Of a stretch of DNA of 10,813 nt, positions 245-10,813 are shown in pieces. A program made the translations under genes and the position numbers. Positions within the stretch are counted from its first letter, which is position 1. Each line of letters begins with the position of its first letter. This DNA is from Alphaproteobacteria bacterium MarineAlpha10_Bin3 (GTDB taxonomy: Bacteria > Pseudomonadota > Alphaproteobacteria > UBA8366 > GCA-2717185), in contig PTKA01000011.1 of assembly GCA_002937525.1 (NCBI GenBank), positions 1 through 10,813 of the forward strand, in the 5' to 3' direction. Below the pieces are notes generated by a model. That model worked only from the letters and a program-made list of their open reading frames with translations. It was not told where the DNA came from and searched no databases.

Positions 245-928
245 TCAGAGGGTCGTGAAACCCTCCGTATTGTACTCCTGTCCCGGGACGTACGCCTTCG
301 CTTTCAGGGCTTCAACCAGGTCGGACTCCGATCTCACGTCGCCATCGAAAACCGTCACGCAGCTGCCAAGCCCGTGGGTCGAGTGTACATCGCTGCCGCC
401 CGTTCCGCGCAACCCCAGGCATCCGGCGACCTCGGACGCGAATGCGTTCTCCTCGGGGCTGTTGGCGCCGTTGAGAACTTCGATATCGTCGACGATGGCG
501 AAAAGCGGGTGGCGGGAAGCATCCTGGGCGTCATTGGGAACGTCCGCCACTTCCGGGTACAGCAGGTTGGAGCTGTACGGGGGCCGGCTGAACATGTTCC
601 TGAACGGATGGGCCGAGATCATCACACCGCCCGCCCGGTCCACCGCTCTGCGCAGCTCGCCGATACGGCCAATCCCGGCCTCGTACCGCTGCATGCCGAG
701 CACCAGCACGTGGCCCATTTCGGTGGCAACCTCCAGGCCCTGAATCACGGTGAGGCCGGAGTCGCCGAAGGTCCGCTGGAGCTCGGCTGGCTCCCAGCCC
801 CCGCTATGCTCTGTCAGGCACACGCCGTCGAGTCCGATCCGTGCCGCCTCCCGAATGAGCTCTTCGGGCGCCAGGCTGCTGTCGCTGCTGCCTCTGAGCG
901 TATGCACGTGTAGGTCGAATACCGACAT
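245..928 (-). CDS. PHP-domain metal-dependent phosphoesterase
   Basis: The 227 aa protein is a single PHP domain (polymerase and histidinol phosphatase family), a TIM-like barrel binding two or three metal ions and hydrolysing phosphoesters. Visible ligand motifs in order are DLHVHT (H7, H9), D16 in the following loop, LTEH (H41), GLEV (E66), H73, SAHPFR (H107) and GSDVH (D180, H182). This is a complete set for a catalytically competent member. Length fits stand-alone PHP proteins; there is no polymerase or other fused domain and no signal peptide. The natural substrate cannot be read from sequence: relatives act on histidinol phosphate, nucleoside bisphosphates or short oligonucleotides. It lies 18 bp after the small membrane protein and 24 bp before the ICMT-like gene, suggesting one operon with ispE. 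No strong ribosome binding site is visible, so translational coupling is likely. Confidence 0.85.
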   Translation of the reverse strand: MSVFDLHVHTLRGSSDSSLAPEELIREAARIGLDGVCLTEHSGGWEPAELQRTFGDSGLTVIQGLEVATEMGHVLVLGMQRYEAGIGRIGELRRAVDRAGGVMISAHPFRNMFSRPPYSSNLLYPEVADVPNDAQDASRHPLFAIVDDIEVLNGANSPEENAFASEVAGCLGLRGTGGSDVHSTHGLGSCVTVFDGDVRSESDLVEALKAKAYVPGQEYNTEGFTTL

Positions 929-946
929 ATCAGTGTCGTCGCAATC

Positions 947-1360
947 TCAGCTAGCCAGGAACGGCAGGAGCCAGCCGAATATCGCCACCGAGGAGACCGC
1001 GATGCCGACGACGCCCTGCCAGACCCGTCTGAGCAGCAGCGTCAGGGGTGCAGCCAACAGGGCCGCCGCGGTGGTGACCGCTATCGAGTATGCCAGGTTG
1101 GGGCTCCCCAGCCCGCCCCCGGGCATGCCGTTCTGCATCGCCAGGAAGAGCAGCCCCATGACGACGCCGATCGCCCCCCAGACCGGATAGGCCAGCACCA
1201 CCACCGCCATGACCGCGCCACCGGGCGGGAACCGCGCCAGCATCACCGCCATTGCCGGCGAAGGGTCTTTGACCAGCGTGAACGCCATGAACGCACCCAC
1301 TGACACGAAGACCGAGGCCATGAACGCTCCGCTGGCGGCCCCGGCAATCAGCGCACCTAT
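947..1360 (-). CDS. Small hydrophobic membrane protein of unknown function
   Basis: I do not recognise a family. From the first ATG (1321) the protein has 124 aa and about three or four hydrophobic segments: residues 1-17, about 32-63 (probably two helices around a YPVWG turn), about 80-100, and a C-terminal segment VVGIAVSSVAIFGWLLPFLAS. The frame is open upstream and encodes further hydrophobic residues (GALIAGASGAF), so helix 1 probably begins before that ATG. A very strong Shine-Dalgarno (AGGAGGGG, 1365-1372) stands 4-6 nt before an in-frame ATA at 1358-1360. The boundary given uses that unusual start and yields 137 aa overlapping the ispE stop codon. The conservative alternative is 947-1321. 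It lies between ispE and the PHP gene, probably in one operon. Confidence 0.6.
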   Translation of the reverse strand: MGALIAGAASGAFMASVFVSVGAFMAFTLVKDPSPAMAVMLARFPPGGAVMAVVVLAYPVWGAIGVVMGLLFLAMQNGMPGGGLGSPNLAYSIAVTTAAALLAAPLTLLLRRVWQGVVGIAVSSVAIFGWLLPFLAS

Positions 1361-1935
1361 AGCTCCCCTCCTGCGGGCTCCCCTCCCGCCGGCTGCCAGG
1401 CCGACACCAGGAAGGCTGGCCAGCCATATCTCTGGGAAAGCAGTAGCTGCATGGCCGTGCCTACCTCTCTCTTAGCCACGGGCGCGAACAGCGTCGGTCC
1501 GCTGCCGGCCAGGTGTATCTCTCTGGCGCCAACGGACACGAAGGCTTGCCAGTGCCTGGAGCTGTCTGGAAACACCTTCCGAGCCACGCTGTCGAAGGCA
1601 TTGAAGAAGAACTGTGCGGGTACGTCCCCGCCGCCGCGAATCCTGGCTTCGAGCTTTCTCGTCAACGCCCCCCTGGTGTAGCTGGTCCGCGGGATGGCGG
1701 AGTACATGGACGCGGTCTTGTCGGCCAGCTCGGTCCCGGGCGCAAGCAGTACCATCCAGGGGAGGTCGGCCCCGGGCAGCGCGCGCACGCGCTCTCCCCT
1801 GCCCAGGACGATGGCCGTCCCGCCGCGAATGAAGAATGGCGCGTCAGAGCTAAGCTGGGCCGCCAGAGACTGAAGCTCCTCGGCGCCGAGACCGAGGCCC
1901 CAGAGCCTGTTCAACCCGACCAGCGCCGCCAGCAT
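1357..1935 (-). pseudogene. ispE: IspE (CDP-methylerythritol kinase), N-terminally truncated at a junction
   Basis: IspE phosphorylates CDP-methylerythritol in the MEP isoprenoid pathway. Only the C-terminal two thirds is here, about 185 of a usual 280-300 residues. Visible hallmarks are LNRLWGLGL, SSDAPFFIRGGTAIVLGRGE (the substrate-loop region), NAFDSVA and the GHMP motif 3 AGSGPTLFAP. Missing are the N-terminal substrate motif and the glycine-rich ATP loop GLGGGSSDAA, which should stand immediately before the first recognisable residues. Instead the frame continues in phase into a different short protein (CoxF-like). As read, the product could not bind ATP and would be inactive. The C-terminus ends in a short PAGGEPAGGEL tail. 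Its downstream neighbours belong with it, not with the cox genes. I infer a chimeric joint; a full ispE would be expected in the true source genome. Confidence 0.85.
1365..1372 (-). promoter_or_regulatory. Strong ribosome binding site inside the ispE 3' end
   Basis: The minus strand reads AGGAGGGG just before the ispE stop codon. No ATG, GTG or TTG lies at a useful distance in the downstream frame; the codon at the right spacing is ATA. It indicates that the membrane protein begins here rather than at the ATG 39 nt further on. Confidence 0.5.
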
Positions 1936-1940
1936 AGCCC
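1905..1940. other. Junction between the cox block and the ispE block
   Basis: The coding identity switches from CoxF-like to IspE within residues MLAALVGLNRLWG of one continuous frame. Both families have a small hydrophobic run of Ala, Leu and Gly at this point, so the joint lies in a stretch where the two parents could share short sequence. Genes on both sides are truncated at this spot. I see no inverted repeats, target-site duplication or integrase nearby. Confidence 0.75.
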
Positions 1941-2037
1941 AGTTCTTGGAACGTTGCCGCCGGTGCATTTCACTTCGATAGCCGTGATTATCGTCTTTCT
2001 CGGCCATATTCCTCGCCGTTGTCATGGACGCACCCAT
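1912..2037 (-). pseudogene. CoxF-like small membrane protein, N-terminal fragment only
   Basis: Directly after ctaB (6 bp) a short frame begins: a polar charged N-terminus, then RRQRSKNWAMLAALVGL, the start of a hydrophobic helix. In alphaproteobacteria the gene after ctaB is typically a 40-60 aa protein of exactly this plan (basic RRxRxKN followed by one transmembrane helix, often VVLFYxVTIVRM), lying between ctaB and ctaG. Here the helix breaks off after about seven residues and the frame continues as IspE. The family assignment rests on position and architecture, because the conserved second half of the helix is lost. Two more ATGs lie downstream (codons 5 and 11), so the exact start is uncertain; AAGGTGGG just before the first ATG is very close to it. 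Confidence 0.65.
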
Positions 2038-2043
2038 CCCACC

Positions 2044-2970
2044 TTAACCGCCCAACCCGGGCGCCGCGTCCACCATCAGCAAGGCGAACAGCGCGAACAG
2101 GTAGAAGATCGAATATCCGAACATGCGTTTTGCCGCGCGCGTAGTCGGGTCGAACCACACCGCGCTCGCGGCGGCGAGGAAGAACAGACTCAACACCAGC
2201 GCCCCGACGCCATAGACGATTCCGGTGGTGCCGAGCCAGGCCGGCAGCACGGCCACCGGGACCAGCAATACGGTGTAGAGCAGCATTTGTTTTTTCGTCT
2301 CGGCGTCGCCCGCGACAACCGGCAGCATTGGAATTCCGGCCTTGGCATAGTCGCCCCGCCGATAGAGCGCCAACGCCCAAAAATGCGGCGGCGTCCATAA
2401 GAAAATCAGGGCAAACAAGGCCAGGGACTCGACCGTCACGCCACCCGTGACCGCGGCCCAGCCGATCATCGGCGGGAAGGCGCCGGCCGCGCCGCCAATC
2501 ACGATATTTTGCGGCGTGCGGCGCTTCAGCCAGACCGTATAGATGAAAACGTAGAACAGGATCGAAACCGCCAACAACCCCGCCGCGGCAAGATTGACCG
2601 CCAAACCCATGACCGCGACCGCGCCGATGGCAAGCACGACGCCAAAGCCCAGCGCGTCGCCGGGCGCGATCCGCCCGGTTGGTATGGGCCGCTGGCAGGT
2701 CCGCGCCATGATCGCGTCGATATCGCGGTCATACCACATGTTGATAGCCCCCGCCGCACCCGCGCCGATTGCGATGCAAAGTATCGCCACCATGGCAATC
2801 AGGGGATGAATGCCGCCGGGCGCAACGATGACCCCCGCCGCCCCGGTGAAGACAACAAGCGACACCACGCGCGGCTTGAGCAGGGCAAAATAGTCGCCCG
2901 GGCTGCCATAGCTCAATTCGCCCCGCACGAGTTCGGTTTCGCGGTATGCGGTATCGCTCACTTTTATCAT
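2044..2970 (-). CDS. ctaB: Protoheme IX farnesyltransferase (heme O synthase)
   Basis: This UbiA-family inner-membrane prenyltransferase attaches a farnesyl group to heme B, giving heme O, the precursor of heme A used by the adjacent CoxA. The 308 aa length is normal. The first Asp-rich motif is N77-x3-D81-x3-D85 (NMWYDRDID) followed by ARTCQRPIPTGR. The conserved loop YTVWLKRRTPQN is at 144-155, WTPPHFWALAL at about 192, and the second acidic motif around D207 leads into AGIPMLPVVAGD. About eight or nine hydrophobic helices are evident. GAGGAG (2971-2976) abuts the ATG at 2970 with no spacing, so the GTG at codon 4 (2961), 9 nt downstream of it, may be the real start. It follows coxA by 17 bp and is clearly in the same operon. 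Confidence 0.96.
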   Translation of the reverse strand: MIKVSDTAYRETELVRGELSYGSPGDYFALLKPRVVSLVVFTGAAGVIVAPGGIHPLIAMVAILCIAIGAGAAGAINMWYDRDIDAIMARTCQRPIPTGRIAPGDALGFGVVLAIGAVAVMGLAVNLAAAGLLAVSILFYVFIYTVWLKRRTPQNIVIGGAAGAFPPMIGWAAVTGGVTVESLALFALIFLWTPPHFWALALYRRGDYAKAGIPMLPVVAGDAETKKQMLLYTVLLVPVAVLPAWLGTTGIVYGVGALVLSLFFLAAASAVWFDPTTRAAKRMFGYSIFYLFALFALLMVDAAPGLGG

Positions 2971-2987
2971 CTCCTCAACGCCGCTGC

Positions 2988-4586
<1,599 letters not shown>

Positions 4587-4600
4587 TTAATCTCTGCGCT

Positions 4601-5452
4601 TCAGTCTGCGGCTTTGTTCTTGGCAAGTTGGAGCAGCCGCTTGGCCGGCTCGTCCTGACGTGCGTATTTCTTCTGCGCGGCCTCGACCCAAATTGCGAAG
4701 TCTTCCGGAGAGACCGCTTCGATCGCAACCGGCATATAGCTGTGATTAACGCCACACAACTCCGAACAGAACCCGTAATAGACGCCGGGCTTCGTAATCT
4801 GAACCCAGGTTTCGTTCAACCGCCCCGGCACCGTGTCCAGCTTGATTCCGAAGGACGGGATACCCCAGTTATGGAGGACGTCGTTGGACGTCATGAGCAG
4901 CTGGATCCGCTTGCCGACCGGCAACACGACCCGGTTGTCGGTGTCCATCAAGCGTTTTAAATTCGGGTTCTTGGCGATGTCCTCGTCGCTGACCATGTTG
5001 GCGTCGAAGCCAAAATTGCCGTAATCGGGATACTCATAGGACCAGTACCACTGATTTCCGGTGATCTTCAGGGTCATGTCCGGGTTTTCGACTCGGTCGG
5101 CATAATAAAGCAGTTTGAACGACGGAACGGCGATAATAATCAAGATGAGGACCGGACCCGCGGTCCACAGCACTTCGAGCAGCATATTGTGGGTCGTGGT
5201 TGTCGGCGTCGGGTTGGCCCGTTCATTGAACTTGAAAATGACGATGAGCAGCAGGACCATCACAAAGATTGAAATTGCGACCGCAATAATGGTGACGAAA
5301 TCGTGAAATCCGTCGATCCGGTCCATGGTTAAACTGGCCGGTTCCTGAAAACCGAACTGCCAATCCTTCGGCTCACCTGCTTGCGCCATTCCGACGCCAG
5401 CGCCAAACACGCCCGCAAGCGTCGCCGCGTATGCGGCAAACCGTGATTCCAC
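4601..5452 (-). CDS. coxB: Cytochrome c oxidase subunit II (CuA subunit)
   Basis: Subunit II takes electrons from cytochrome c through a binuclear CuA centre and passes them to CoxA. I choose the GTG at 5452 because GGGAGGAG lies 5 nt upstream and the resulting N-terminus, VESRFAAYAATLAGVFGAGVGMAQA, is a good signal peptide with predicted cleavage after AQA. The mature chain would begin GEPKDWQ. This gives 283 aa. The longer frame back to a TTG at 5530 would put 26 unusual residues before the signal. In 283-aa numbering, two membrane helices lie at about 52-74 and 91-112. Then come QWYWSYEYP (electron entry) and the CuA ligands H194, C229, E231, C233, H237 and M240 (YGFCSELCGVNHSYMP). No C-terminal cytochrome c domain is present. 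First gene of the cox operon. Confidence 0.97.
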   Translation of the reverse strand: MESRFAAYAATLAGVFGAGVGMAQAGEPKDWQFGFQEPASLTMDRIDGFHDFVTIIAVAISIFVMVLLLIVIFKFNERANPTPTTTTHNMLLEVLWTAGPVLILIIIAVPSFKLLYYADRVENPDMTLKITGNQWYWSYEYPDYGNFGFDANMVSDEDIAKNPNLKRLMDTDNRVVLPVGKRIQLLMTSNDVLHNWGIPSFGIKLDTVPGRLNETWVQITKPGVYYGFCSELCGVNHSYMPVAIEAVSPEDFAIWVEAAQKKYARQDEPAKRLLQLAKNKAAD

Positions 5453-5538
5453 GATTGCTCCTCCCATCCCAAACCCATCTATTGCCGCTTCGGCCATCGT
5501 CTCGGCACCGACGATCATCGACTGCACCAAATTATTTC

Positions 5539-5566
5539 ATACTACTGCGCCGCCTCGCCAATTCAA
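5539..5566 (-). promoter_or_regulatory. Candidate sigma70-type promoter for coxB-coxA-ctaB
   Basis: On the minus strand TTGAAT (5561-5566) and TAGTAT (5539-5544) are separated by 16 nt, each matching 4 of 6 consensus positions. Transcription would start near 5532, leaving a leader of about 80 nt before the GTG start. The alternative coxB start at 5530 would leave almost no leader, which supports the GTG choice. The match is moderate and unproven. Confidence 0.35.
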
Positions 5567-5664
5567 GCGCGTTGCTGGACAAATCGCATATTTCAGCGGG
5601 TTTGTACCGAATTTCGGGGAATTTCAGTCGTCGGCGCGACACTTTGCCACAAAATCGAGGCCGC

Positions 5665-5694
5665 AAAATCGGGTCAAATCGTTCTTGTCCCGAT
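5665..5694 (-). terminator. Possible weak terminator after prmC
   Basis: The minus strand carries ATCGGG and CCCGAT arms around a loop of about 15 nt, followed by a short T run, about 50 bp past the prmC stop. The stem is only 6 bp and the loop long, so this is a weak candidate. The same bases overlap the CAAAATCG repeats, which may be the real reason for the symmetry. Confidence 0.25.
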
Positions 5695-5744
5695 CCGTCC
5701 TTGCGAAGGGCGTTATCGAACAGATGGTATCGCGGGGCAATTTA

Positions 5745-6587
5745 TCATCGCGATTCACAAACAACGCACCGGTCGCGCCCCGCAAGGTCGCGACGCCGCG
5801 CCACGACACACAGGCCGGCATCGACGATCAATCCCGCGACCGCAACGCCTTGCCCGTCGCCGAACTCCACCACCGCCGTCCCGCCGGCGGCCAGCAAGGC
5901 CGGCAGCCCGGCGATGACCCGGCGCAGCGCCGACAGCCCGTCGCGACCGCCATCAAGGGCGCGGCGCGGTTCATAAACCGAGACTTCCGGCTGCAGACCG
6001 CCAATCTCGCCGCTTGGTATATAGGGCGGATTGGCGACCACCAGATCGAATTTTCCGGACAACGCCTCGCCCCAGTCGCCAACCATGGTCTGGGCGCGGC
6101 CGCCAAAGCCCAGCGCCACGAAATTATGCGCCGCGATGGCGGCGGCGGCCGGGTCGCGGTCCACCGCCAGACCCGACGCATAGGGCAGCATCGACAGCAG
6201 CGCCGCCAGCAGGCAACCCGTTCCGGTCCCCAGATCGGCAATGCGCAGCGCCGCCGACCGGTCGGCAATCCGCGCCAGAGCGGCTTCAATGACGGTCTCG
6301 CTATCGGCGCGGGGGTCAAGCGTGTCGCGGGTGACCGTGAATTCTAGGCTCCAGAATTCGCGCCGGCCAAGCAGATGCGACAGTGGTTCGCGCGCCGCGC
6401 GGCGGGCCAGAAGACGCTCATATTTCGGCCGGTCGTCGACCGGCCGTTCAGGATAACCGATCAGCGTCTCCAGCGCGAACCCGGTCGCCTGCGCCAATAA
6501 CAGGCGCGCTTCCTTGCGCGCACCGGAAATCCCCGCCGCCGCGAGCCGCGCCGATCCCTGGGCAAGGCAGGTCCCGATGCTGGTCAT
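5745..6587 (-). CDS. prmC: Peptide chain release factor N5-glutamine methyltransferase
   Basis: PrmC (HemK) uses S-adenosylmethionine to methylate the glutamine of the GGQ loop of release factors, including RF1 encoded just upstream. The 280 aa protein has the N-terminal helical recognition domain (about 1-75), then [22 protein letters not shown] (77-98), a variant of the usual PRPDTE loop, the SAM motif DLGTGTG (118-124), the acidic strand end AVDRD (141-145) and the catalytic NPPY (186-189). EFGDGQG near 241 is the conserved C-terminal strand and loop. The ATG overlaps the prfA stop codon (ATGA), which implies translational coupling. It appears intact. Confidence 0.96.
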
Positions 6588-7645
6588 CTTATATGCGCCA
6601 GCCGGGCTGCCTGGTCGTCGGCGATCAAGGGATCGATGATTTCATCCAACGCTTCGCCATCGACGACTTTATCGATTTTATAGAGGGTCAGATTGATCCG
6701 GTGATCGGTGACCCGCCCTTGCGGAAAATTATAGGTGCGGATGCGTTCCGACCGGTCGCCGGTGCCGATCTGGCCGCGCCGATCGGCGGCGCGCGCGGCA
6801 TCCAGCTGGGCGCGCTCATGATCGTAAATTCGCGCGCGCAAAATCGTCACCGCCTTGGCCCGGTTCTTGTGCTGGGATTTCTCGTCCTGCTGGGAGACGA
6901 CGATGCCGGTCGGCAGATGGGTGATCCGCACGGCGCTGTCGGTGGTATTCACGGATTGTCCGCCGGGACCGCTGGCGCGAAAAATATCGATCCGCAGATC
7001 CTTGTCGTTGATCTGGACATCGACTTCCTCGGCCTCCGGCAATACCGCGACCGGCGCGGCGGAGGTATGGACCCGGCCGCTGGACTCGGTCGCCGGCACG
7101 CGCTGCACGCGATGGACACCGGATTCGAATTTCAGCCTGGCGAAAACGCCCCGGCCCGAAACCAGCGCCGATGCTTCCTTGTAGCCGCCAAGTTCGTTAT
7201 CGCTGATGCCCATGATCTCGAATTTCCAGCCCCGCCCCTCGGCGTAACGCTGATACATCCGAAACAGTTCAGCCGCGAACAGCGACGCCTCATCCCCGCC
7301 GGTCCCGGCCCTGACCTCCAGGATAGCGTTCTTGTCGTCCGCCGAGTCCTTGGGCAGAAGCATGATTTGCAGCGCCTGCTGGATTTCCGGTATGCGGGCG
7401 CGGAGTTCCTGCATTTCGGCCTCCGCCAGTTCCTTCATTTCCGGGTTGGACGAGAGTTCCGCCAGATCGTCGAGTTCGCGCGATGCACTGTCCAGTTGCT
7501 TGATTTTTTCGACCACCGGCGCCAGTTCGGCAAATTCCTTCGACATATTTTTATAATCATCCGGCGCCAGATCGCCACTCGACATCAACGCCGTCAGTTC
7601 TTCGTGCCGCGCAACAAGACTTGCGAATTTTTCGTTCCTGGCCAT
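6584..7645 (-). CDS. prfA: Peptide chain release factor 1
   Basis: RF1 recognises UAA and UAG in the ribosomal A site and triggers release of the finished chain. The 353 aa protein has the coiled N-terminal domain (1-100), the AGTGGDEA region (113-120), the PAT tripeptide that selects UAA/UAG (184-186, followed by ESSGRVHTS) and the catalytic GGQ at 228-230 ([16 protein letters not shown]). The PAT motif, rather than SPF, separates it from RF2. [10 protein letters not shown] marks the conserved segment after the GGQ loop. Its own stop is TGA, not read by RF1. It starts 12 bp after the hemA TAG stop and in the same frame, and it overlaps prmC, its modifying enzyme, by 4 bp. No clear ribosome binding site is seen. 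Confidence 0.98.
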
Positions 7646-7657
7646 TTTGTCTACTTT

Positions 7658-8926
7658 CTAATCTTCGCGTCCACCAAGGTCGAACAACCGCCGCAACAGG
7701 CGATCCGCTTCCTGCAACTCCTGCATCTCATCCGCTTGTTCGGCAAAAGACCGCATCGCACGGCTCGGCTGGTGCAGCAACCGGTTGATTAATTGCCGGG
7801 TTGCGTCGCGCGCATCGGCGTCCGGCGTATCGTCCAGAATTTCCGCCCGGACCGCTTCGAACCGGGTCCGCAGCGCCGTTATGGCGGGTGCTGCGTCGCG
7901 TGCGGCTTCGGCGCGCCGCCACGATGCAACTTCCTCATCGACAATGCGCCATGCCGTTCCGGCGGCCGCGCCCCGCGTCGAGCGCCCCTCCATCGCAACC
8001 CGCTCCAGATCGTCCAGGGTATACAGAAATGCGCCGTCCAAAGCGCCGACCGCAGGATCGATATCGCCTGGAACCCCCGCATCGATCAACAATACCGGCC
8101 GCCATCGCCGCCGCCGCAGCGCCCCTTCCATCATTTCGGGCGTGATCAGAAACTGGCCGGTCCCGACCGCGGTAACGATGATTTCGGCGGCCTTCAGGCT
8201 ATCTTCCAGCGCCTCGAAGGATACAAAATTATACCCGTTGCGCCGCGCCGCTGCCGCCGTCCGGCGCGACGGGCCGCAAAGCGTGACCCGCTTTACGCCC
8301 GCGGCGCGCAGTTGATCGACGATGATATCGCCCATATCGGCAAGCCCGACCACGAACAATGCCGCCTGGCCAAGGTCGCCCTGCACGTCACGGGCAATCC
8401 GTCCCGCCGCCGCCGCGATCGACACCGGCCGGTGGCCGATTTCGGTTTCCGAGCGCACCCGTTTTGCGGTGACATAGGCGGATTGCAGCACCGATTCCAG
8501 TTCGGCGCCAATCATGCCGCTGGACCGGGCCAGACGATGGCTTTCCTTCATCTGGCCCAGCACTTGCGGTTCGCCGATGGTCTGACTGTCCAGCGAGGAT
8601 GCGACGGCAAAGATATGCCGCACCGCCGCCGCACCGGACAAACAATAGACCTGATCCGCAAGATCGCCTTCGCCGATACCGGCCATCCGGGCCAGCATAC
8701 CACGAATGGATTGCGCAGCCCCGTCGGGATTTTTGGACACCGCTTGCACTTCAACCCTGTCGCAGGTCGACATCAAGAGGGCTTGTTCGATTCCGCTTTC
8801 TGCGAGCTGCTCGAATACCAGCGGCGCTTTCGCCTCGTCGATGAACATCCGGTCGCGCAACGCCACCGTGCTGGAGCGATGATTCGCGCCAACCACGAAC
8901 GGCTCGGCCCGCCCTTCGGCCGGCAT
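7658..8926 (-). CDS. hemA: Glutamyl-tRNA reductase
   Basis: GluTR reduces glutamyl-tRNA(Glu) with NADPH to glutamate-1-semialdehyde, the first committed step of C5-pathway tetrapyrrole synthesis. The 422 aa protein has VVGANHRSS near the start, catalytic C55 in STCDRVEV, GEPQVLGQMK (118-127) and the NADPH-domain loop GLADMG (194-199), where the second glycine of the usual GxGxMG is alanine. The C-terminal dimerisation helices (about 330-422) are complete. Many alphaproteobacteria instead make aminolevulinate with ALA synthase, also often called hemA; this is clearly the C5 enzyme, so gene-name confusion should be avoided. It begins 6 bp after the hisS stop without a recognisable ribosome binding site. 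It ends in TAG, a stop read by the RF1 gene that follows. Confidence 0.97.
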   Translation of the reverse strand: MPAEGRAEPFVVGANHRSSTVALRDRMFIDEAKAPLVFEQLAESGIEQALLMSTCDRVEVQAVSKNPDGAAQSIRGMLARMAGIGEGDLADQVYCLSGAAAVRHIFAVASSLDSQTIGEPQVLGQMKESHRLARSSGMIGAELESVLQSAYVTAKRVRSETEIGHRPVSIAAAAGRIARDVQGDLGQAALFVVGLADMGDIIVDQLRAAGVKRVTLCGPSRRTAAAARRNGYNFVSFEALEDSLKAAEIIVTAVGTGQFLITPEMMEGALRRRRWRPVLLIDAGVPGDIDPAVGALDGAFLYTLDDLERVAMEGRSTRGAAAGTAWRIVDEEVASWRRAEAARDAAPAITALRTRFEAVRAEILDDTPDADARDATRQLINRLLHQPSRAMRSFAEQADEMQELQEADRLLRRLFDLGGRED

Positions 8927-8932
8927 CGCGCG

Positions 8933-10177
8933 TTAACGATAGCGGGCGAGATAGTCCGAAAGAGCGGCCAGCGCCACCTCTTCCTGTTCGCCCGTATCCA
9001 TGTGGCGGACAGTGGCCGCCTGCCGCGCCAATTCATCTTCGCCCAGAATCACGACCGCCGAGGCATTGATTTTATTGGCCCGTTTCATGCGCCGGCTCAA
9101 ATTTCCGCCATACCCGATATCGATTCGATAGCCATCGCGGCGCAGCTGTTCGGTGAGGGACTGTGCTGCGCGCAACGCCGCTTTGCCGATCGGCACCACG
9201 CCGACCGGCCGCGGCGGCAGCGGCGGATCGCCCCGCAGCATCGCCAATCTTTCAATGCCGCCGGCCCAGCCGACGCCCGGCGTCTCCCGCCCCCCCATCA
9301 TGCCGATCAGCCCGTCATAGCGGCCGCCGGCAATAAGCGCGCCCTGCGCGCCCAACGCATCGGTGGTGAATTCAAACGCCGTGTGGCAATAATAGTCGAG
9401 ACCGCGCACAAGCCGCGCATTGAGCGTGAACGCGATATCCAACGCCTCAAGACCGGCCGTTACGGCGGTAAAGAAATCGCTGCTTTCCGCGTTCAAATAA
9501 TCGGCAAAAAGCGGCGCGTTGGCGACAACTTCCCGGTCGGCCTGGTTCTTGGAATCGAGAATCCGGAGCGGATTGCGCGTCAGCCGGTCGCGGCTTTCCG
9601 GGGAAAGCGCGTCCAGATGGTCACTGAAATACGTCACCAGCGCGGCACGGTAGGCCGTGCGGCTGGCAGTGTCGCCAAGCGTGTTCAATTCCAGCACCGT
9701 ATCCGACAGCACACCCAGATCGTCGAGTACGCGAGCGCCGCAGGCGATGACCTCGATATCAGCCTGCGGCTGGGCGACGCCGATCAACTCCACGCCGATC
9801 TGGTGGAACTGGCGCAGCCGCCCTTTTTGCGGCCGTTCGTAGCGAAACATCGGTCCGCTGTAGAACACCTTGAACGGCGCGCTGTGCGCCAATCCCTCGG
9901 AAATGAAGCAGCGGGCAATGCCGGCGGTGTTTTCCGGCCGCAACGTGACTTCGTCGCCGCCCTTGTCGGTGAACGTGTACATTTCCTTGGTCACGATGTC
10001 CGACGTGTCGCCCAATGTCCGCTGGAACACCTGGCTGAACTCGAATATCGGCGTCGACATCTCGTCGAACCCGTAGCGTGACGCGGCGGCGCGCGCGACC
10101 TTCGACACAAACCGGTGCGCACGGGTCTGGTCCGGCAACAGATCATGCGTGCCGCGAACGGGCTGTAGCAGGGCCAT
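8933..10177 (-). CDS. hisS: Histidyl-tRNA synthetase
   Basis: Class II aminoacyl-tRNA synthetase charging tRNA(His). I place the start at the ATG at 10177 because MALLQPVRGTHDLLPDQT is the canonical N-terminus; an upstream ATG at 10234 would add 19 residues that do not fit the family and overlap the promoter candidate. The resulting protein has 414 aa. Motif 1 covers about 40-65, LRPENTA is at 79-85, motif 2 FRYERPQKGRLRQFHQ at 111-126, the histidine-specific RGLDYY at 258-263, GGRYDGL at 284-290, and motif 3 VGWAGGIERL near 302-311. The C-terminal anticodon-binding domain follows. It is the first intact gene of the hisS-hemA-prfA-prmC run; no strong ribosome binding site is visible. Confidence 0.97.
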   Translation of the reverse strand: MALLQPVRGTHDLLPDQTRAHRFVSKVARAAASRYGFDEMSTPIFEFSQVFQRTLGDTSDIVTKEMYTFTDKGGDEVTLRPENTAGIARCFISEGLAHSAPFKVFYSGPMFRYERPQKGRLRQFHQIGVELIGVAQPQADIEVIACGARVLDDLGVLSDTVLELNTLGDTASRTAYRAALVTYFSDHLDALSPESRDRLTRNPLRILDSKNQADREVVANAPLFADYLNAESSDFFTAVTAGLEALDIAFTLNARLVRGLDYYCHTAFEFTTDALGAQGALIAGGRYDGLIGMMGGRETPGVGWAGGIERLAMLRGDPPLPPRPVGVVPIGKAALRAAQSLTEQLRRDGYRIDIGYGGNLSRRMKRANKINASAVVILGEDELARQAATVRHMDTGEQEEVALAALSDYLARYR

Positions 10178-10215
10178 GGTCGAAACGCCGTTGTTTGCGG
10201 TTGATGCGGAACGGC

Positions 10216-10244
10216 GAATGTGCCCGCGCCGCAAGGAAAGTCAA
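10216..10244 (-). promoter_or_regulatory. Candidate promoter for hisS-hemA-prfA-prmC
   Basis: On the minus strand TTGACT (10239-10244), preceded by C to give CTTGAC as favoured in alphaproteobacteria, stands 17 nt before ACATTC (10216-10221). The -10 match is poor. Its position in the 86 bp between the rodZ stop and the hisS start would give a leader of about 30 nt and fits the 10177 start. Confidence 0.35.
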
Positions 10245-10263
10245 GCGATAGCGGTTTGCATGG

Positions 10264-10655
10264 TCAGCGGCTAATGGCGGTGCCGGCTTTTAGCCGTTCC
10301 GCATCGAGCACGACCTCGTGGCGAATAGCGCCCTTGGGACCGAGCCCCGGCACGGATTCGCCATCGACCCGGATATCGAGCCCGCCGGCATTTCCGGTAC
10401 GCATCACCACCCCGGCCAGGTTCGGCACCCAATAGCTGTCGCCAACCCGCAGAACCCGCGTCAACAGCAACTTACCTTCTTTGTTGCGAATCTGCACCCA
10501 GCTGTCATCCGTCGCCTGAATGACGACCCGCGCATCGGTGTTTTCAGCACCGTAGCGACGCGGTTCCCCAGTGCTTTGGGCCGGCGGAGCCGGCGGAACG
10601 GGCGGGGCCAGATCGGTCGCCGGCGGCACCGCCGTTTGTGTCCTTCGTCCGCAAC
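10264..10655 (-). pseudogene. rodZ: RodZ-type protein, C-terminal periplasmic domain only
   Basis: The frame encodes a proline-rich linker (PPATDLAPPVPPAPPAQS) followed by a DUF4115-type domain: DARVVIQATDDSWVQIRN, LLLTRVLRVGDSYWVPN, TGNAGGLDIRVDG and a tail ending AISR. This is the periplasmic end of RodZ, the MreB-associated cell-shape protein found near ispG and hisS in many alphaproteobacteria. A complete RodZ would carry about 200 more residues, with a cytoplasmic helix-turn-helix domain and one transmembrane helix. Both are missing. The frame can be extended upstream to a GTG at 10725, but that stretch (ASPFSTGGPSNREPALCFCC) is a wrong-frame reading of the methyltransferase end. I read this as a fragment cut at the right-hand junction. 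No ispG lies between it and hisS. Confidence 0.8.
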
Positions 10656-10665
10656 AGAAACAAAG
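10620..10665. other. Junction between the methyltransferase end and rodZ
   Basis: On the minus strand a methyltransferase-like frame loses family character after GTRTLFLLRTK (about 10645), without a stop. RodZ character begins in a different frame at about 10650-10625. Two truncated genes meeting out of frame marks a breakpoint. I cannot place it more finely, and I see no repeats or mobile-element remnant. Confidence 0.6.
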
Positions 10666-10813
10666 TGCGGGTTCCCGATTGGAGGGGCCGCCGGTCGAGA
10701 ATGGAGAAGCGAGTTTCGCAGGCACGGGCGAACGCCTCCTCCGTCAGGCCGGTATGAAGGTCCTCGCGGCCCCGGTAAAGACGCCTGAAATTGGCATCTT
10801 CCGGCGCTACGAA
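10640..10813 (-). pseudogene. C-terminal end of a SAM-dependent methyltransferase-like protein
   Basis: The frame enters from beyond the right edge and is open to a TGA at 10544-10546. Its first 60 or so residues include EDANFRRLYRGREDLHTGL, TEEAFARACETRFSILDRR and SGTRTLFLLRTK. This resembles the last segment of class I SAM-dependent methyltransferases of the NoeA-like group, which end with a LxxREDIF...YTEEAFExA...F.I...SGTRxLYLL pattern. The catalytic domain is outside the window, so function and substrate cannot be judged. After LLRTK the reading becomes low-complexity (GGAAGDRSGP, a shadow of the rodZ proline-rich linker), so the natural stop is lost at the junction. Confidence 0.5.

Follow-up and report, generated by a model that had tools for sequence, protein, structure and literature searches.

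According to the GUNC paper (PMC8201837), misassembly is the wrong assembly together of fragments of several sources, and misassemblies are a known error in metagenome-assembled genomes that is relatively rare as compared with mis-binning. The stretch of DNA analysed here (the window) is the whole of one contig, C13, 10,813 bases in length, of a fragmented alphaproteobacterial genome that is by all signs metagenome-assembled and that comprises 502 contigs and 2.30 Mb, with a completeness of 64% and a contamination of 1.3%. The window resembles misassembled chimeric contigs in that it contains DNA of two lineages and in that gene order, composition and gene integrity all change at one short point. 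It differs from them in that a reading frame happens to stay open across that point, hence its look of a fusion gene. We conclude that the window is very probably a chimeric contig.

The recognised genes of the window, and all features described below, are on the minus strand; no tRNA gene was found in the window. The feature at the point of change is an open reading frame of 226 amino acids (1357..2037) in which the N-terminal part of CoxF (the name that we take to apply to the small protein encoded after ctaB in alphaproteobacterial cox operons) is joined in frame to the C-terminal part of IspE. From about residue 11 to residue 42, the hybrid frame matches the small open reading frame after ctaB of relatives (59% over 37 residues for locus L017, a copy for which no Pfam family was found; 69% over 32 residues for L019), and after the residues A-A-L-V-G-L it switches to N-R-L-W-G-L-G-L, which is IspE. 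A profile search matches residues 37-190 to positions 111-261 of the 294 positions of the IspE family TIGR00154 (9.4e-23), and the score of the frame, 81.2 bits, lies below the curated cut-off of 138.7. Comparison with relatives makes codon 11 (MAEKDD...) the likely native CoxF start. The part that is CoxF only, by comparison with relatives, runs from codon 11 to codon 36 (1930..2007); the part that is IspE only, by profile match and by alignment with the IspE protein P0001, occupies 1357..1911; and between them lies the joint, codons 37-42 (A-A-L-V-G-L; 1912..1929), of at most 18 bases that fit relatives of both parents.

Alignments with intact IspE and CoxF relatives establish that both genes at the joint are broken in mid-gene relative to both lineages. 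The shared codons and the part downstream of them correspond to residue 104 onwards of the 293-residue P0001; the first 103 residues are absent. Compared with IspE (TIGR00154), the hybrid therefore has the C-terminal two thirds, 94% identical to a Chloroflexota-type IspE, and lacks the N-terminal third with the GHMP-kinase ATP-binding loop GLGGGSS, which is present in all nine aligned relatives. Compared with CoxF, the hybrid has the N-terminal 32 residues and the position behind ctaB, and from codon 43 onwards the hydrophobic C-terminal tail (LFYVV...VRMGGG in most of the relatives read) is exchanged for IspE. These results bear out the initial annotation, which had described a 226-codon frame that passes from CoxF into an IspE without its ATP-binding loop, with both parent genes cut at the same point. 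In protein searches, the hybrid frame is matched best by IspE proteins of full length, among them P0001 (94% identity over 77% of the query). The best 120 of the 842 matches all keep the glycine-serine loop of IspE (109 in the strict pattern, 11 as close variants such as GGGSAD or GGGSCD); none of these 120 contains a narrow CoxF pattern, and none has the CoxF-IspE layout. A comparison of the hybrid frame with phage records gave no match, which is uninformative on the origin of the joint.

The joint had been placed within 1905-1940, at a short Ala/Leu-rich stretch similar in both genes; our alignments narrow it to 1912-1929 (codons 37-42), and the stretch is indeed common to relatives of both. 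DNA similarity to the CoxF of a genome of the same family (G004) and to that of a genome of another family of the same order (G283) stops at window position 1912 in both cases; the CoxF of G283 reads MLAALVGL at the joint site, and the IspE of P0002-P0005 reads AALVGL at the matching site. On these sequences, the stretch common to the parents can extend over up to codons 37-42, and the crossover can be placed no more finely than that range, which is judged from relatives. Because three CoxF copies of the same genus (L013, L014 and L016) differ there, without AALVGL at the joint site, the true common stretch may be shorter than 18 bases, and the AALVGL residues may come from IspE alone. Matching of six-residue stretches between six of the eight CoxF sequences read (L016 and L020 being left out) and six IspE sequences gave results that depend on the CoxF sequence. 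For CoxF sequences with AVLVGL (L015, L017 and L018), the joint is the sole best match, with five of six residues, in all 18 comparisons, each of some 11,000-12,100 pairings; for L019, the joint matches at four of six residues and is tied with three to six other places; for L013 and L014, only three of the six residues agree at the joint, and the best match lies elsewhere.

To the right of the joint, the window carries an alphaproteobacterial run of genes: ctaB, encoding an alphaproteobacterial heme o synthase (2044..2970), coxA (2988..4574), whose product is 87-88% identical to those of four relatives of the genus and family, coxB (4601..5530), and then, within 5745..10725 and named from right to left, an open reading frame with a RodZ C-terminal domain, hisS, hemA, prfA and prmC, the order from hisS to prmC being that of four relatives. 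The full order hisS-hemA-prfA-prmC-coxB-coxA-ctaB is collinear with the window in all four alphaproteobacterial stretches compared. The RodZ-like frame is matched in two of these (L040 and L041) and unmatched in the other two (L038 and L039), both of which are cut inside hisS. We also observe that the RodZ C-terminal domain is carried by a 153-residue frame at 10264-10725 that adjoins hisS, as in L040 and L041. The hisS of the window is a member of a 100% cluster in which the named relatives are Rhodospirillaceae and Alphaproteobacteria, one being named only as Proteobacteria; the cluster has four contigs, the longest of 4964 bases and too short to span the ~7 kb from hisS to the joint.

In intact relatives, the small frame after ctaB does not end as it does in the window. 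In all eight loci read, from 11 relatives' loci fetched, this frame is complete, with a tail such as LFYVVALVRMGGG followed by a stop, and a reading of CtaG comes after CoxF. The expectation of the initial annotation that ctaG and coxC should follow holds in the relatives: the Pfam families CtaG_Cox11 and COX3 are confirmed downstream in L038, and ctaG and coxC come next in the same place in three further genomes (G001, G002 and G007). On the other contigs of the window's own genome, ctaG and coxC were sought and not found, a weak result at 64% completeness; the same two queries match in all three control relatives (G001, G002 and G007). A literature search on coxF together with ctaG and cytochrome oxidase found no paper.

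To the left of the joint, the window carries genes of Chloroflexota type. The IspE part is followed by a gene for a 124-residue membrane protein (947..1321), by a gene for a PHP-domain protein (CehA/McbA-like; 245..928; best match 96%) and by the start of a hydrophobic frame of 73 residues that is cut by the contig end (2..220). The initial annotation had read this side as ispE, a membrane protein, a PHP protein and an ICMT-like protein; the first three readings stand, and the last does not, the frame at 2-220 giving a weak DUF981 match below the cut-off and no convincing family match. Of the two halves of the hybrid, the IspE side is of Chloroflexota type and the CoxF side is alphaproteobacterial. 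A search of named genomes with P0001 gave 14 loci; the five with the highest identity (53-63%) come from genomes with Chloroflexi or Dehalococcoidia in their titles, and the organism-named entries among the 120 listed matches of the PHP protein are SAR202 or Chloroflexi. In the order of genome G020, which is one of these Chloroflexi or Dehalococcoidia genomes, P0001 is matched in 232 of 250 genomes searched; because the best of these matches has 65% identity, as compared with 94% between P0001 and the window, the donor species of the left part is absent from the 250 genomes searched.

The gene order on this side was compared with that of seven Chloroflexota loci (five of the 14 named-genome P0001 loci and two more). 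The membrane-protein gene adjoins ispE in six of the seven; in the seventh, L028, there is no match within 1 kb behind ispE. The PHP gene lies behind ispE and the membrane-protein gene in four of the seven (L024, L025, L092 and L093), at a gap of ~0.6 kb in L092 and of 1.5 kb in L093, and none is found there in L026, L027 and L028. In a further Dehalococcoidia locus (L031), a PHP gene lies behind ispE and the membrane protein is unmatched. The fragment at 2-220 is matched in none of the seven loci, and none of the four left-side frames scanned gave a mobile-element match. The membrane protein at 947-1321, which has no Pfam or NCBIfam match, is thus conserved beside an isoprenoid gene and has no name (L024-L027, L092 and L093).

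The left-side genes had been said to have no link to a cox operon, and one locus runs counter to this: in the Dehalococcoidia locus L026 (10304-17453), coxB and coxA are found past ispE and its membrane protein, at ~4 to 6.6 kb from ispE. The proteins encoded there are 32% (coxB) and 45% (coxA) identical to those of the window, and the genes lie on the other side of ispE. This neighbourhood is unrelated to the cox genes of the window, whose coxA is 87-88% identical to that of alphaproteobacterial relatives, and it does not explain the joint.

Composition changes at the same point as gene order. We computed third-order Markov log-odds, own genome minus Chloroflexota, in bits per base, and found -0.046 for 1-1900 vs. 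+0.039 for 2040-10813; the value changes sign at the joint, which confirms the shift that had been noticed by eye. When half-overlapping stretches of 950 bases are scored, negative values are found for the three inside 1-1900 and for the one across the joint (1426-2375), and every stretch from 1901 onwards is positive. As a sample of the own genome, we took 34 of its other 501 contigs, of which three (L084, L085 and L086, from contigs C300, C350 and C400) consist entirely of N and were dropped, leaving 31 contigs and 92 pieces of 1.9 kb. The 92 pieces have a mean of +0.041 and a lowest value of +0.008, none being as low as the left part of the window, and 55 pieces of the seven Chloroflexota loci have a mean of -0.040, none being above 0. 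The left part is ordinary for Chloroflexota, and its value falls beyond those sampled from its own genome; among the sampled other contigs of the genome, none has a foreign composition. The results of the gene-order, protein and composition comparisons establish that the window has two origins.

A different IspE is found in the alphaproteobacterial family. Searches with the hybrid protein covered 19 genomes (the own genome and relatives); 11 gave a match, and the match is full-length in the own genome only. In all five of the genomes G004, G005, G006, G007 and G010, the CoxF part and an IspE-like part match apart from each other: four of these family members have them on different contigs, and in G005 a distance of 166 kb on a single contig lies between them. 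The family's IspE-like matches have 33-40% identity to the IspE piece of the window. Three genomes of the same genus gave no match with the hybrid protein, though their CoxF was read separately. The family thus has an IspE-like gene of its own, different from that of the window and unlinked to coxF where this is visible. A family search found no other IspE in the window's genome (the same search matched in 13 of 14 control genomes). The reading of the IspE piece as the alphaproteobacterium's own gene is rejected, given the 33-40% identity of the family's IspE-like proteins and their lack of linkage to coxF.

According to the explanation that we favour, an alphaproteobacterial part (~1930-10813), comprising the RodZ-like frame, hisS, hemA, prfA, prmC, coxB, coxA and ctaB and running into coxF, and an ispE-membrane protein-PHP piece of a SAR202/Dehalococcoidia-type Chloroflexota (1 to ~1911) would have been fused across the 18 or fewer bases over which coxF and ispE differ little, either through a short overlap during assembly or through template switching while the library was prepared. 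The position of the joint at such a stretch favours joining of this kind. We infer that the common stretch caused the join and that the event took place in the assembler or in library preparation, not in the cell. The frame would be open across the joint because the join is at a short overlap common to both genes. Against a chimera, contamination is low (1.29%) and no other sampled contig is foreign, so that the error would be an isolated one.

Assemblers often use words longer than 18, and for this reason the joint may instead stem from a physical chimera or from real recombination. The second of these would be a recent rearrangement in which a Chloroflexota (SAR202-type) fragment entered coxF by microhomology-mediated (illegitimate) recombination across the 18 or fewer common bases, leaving behind a broken ispE fragment, a broken cox operon and a hybrid open frame. 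Such recombination in a cell would leave an identical sequence pattern, is likewise favoured by a short stretch common to relatives of both genes, and is compatible with the frame staying open. Yet the foreign DNA continues up to the end of the contig without any resumption of host sequence, the four left-side frames are without a mobile-element match, and a dead IspE piece that shows no decay, being 94% identical to an intact one, would require the event to be recent. A rearrangement would also split the cox operon from ctaG and coxC; neither gene is found in this genome, which at 64% completeness is weak either way. The same CoxF-IspE arrangement in an independent genome would speak against a chimera, as the initial annotation had pointed out; among the 43 genomes of the order searched, the joint occurs in the window's own genome only (none of 42 others). 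Because both genes are cut, the IspE piece is without decay, the foreign part runs to the contig end and 42 other genomes are without the joint, illegitimate recombination is a poorer reading than artefactual joining, and we consider it very unlikely. Artefact and real rearrangement are weighed here by plausibility and not by reads; the hybrid protein is almost certainly an artefact.

The 226-codon open frame, with a start codon close to where CoxF begins in relatives, would speak for a functional CoxF-IspE fusion protein. Such a protein is extremely improbable, and we reject it: both the ATP-binding loop of IspE and the tail of CoxF are missing. The IspE part is without its first 103 residues, including the GLGGGSS loop kept by the 120 listed homologues, the CoxF part is without its hydrophobic tail, and the layout is absent among the same 120. 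The preference of the initial annotation for a chimera or a rearrangement over a functional fusion is supported by the two sources, which differ from each other in gene order and in composition, and by the breaks in both genes. Last, that the contig is correct and its left genes are an old, settled horizontal acquisition has hardly any chance of being right, since nothing beyond their physical linkage in the contig was found in its favour and against it stand a left-part composition beyond the sampled range of the rest of the genome and two joint genes cut in mid-gene.

The chimeric contig is foremost a matter of quality control. Through gene calling, the hybrid frame could find its way into protein databases as a 'fusion', and a transfer of Chloroflexota genes to an alphaproteobacterium could be read into the left 1.9 kb. 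Before any use, the contig should be divided at ~1912-1929. More generally, where two parent genes have a short motif in common and in the same frame, a reading frame that stays open over their joint does not testify to a functional fusion. For the biology of the organism, the apparent fusion is most likely of little interest.
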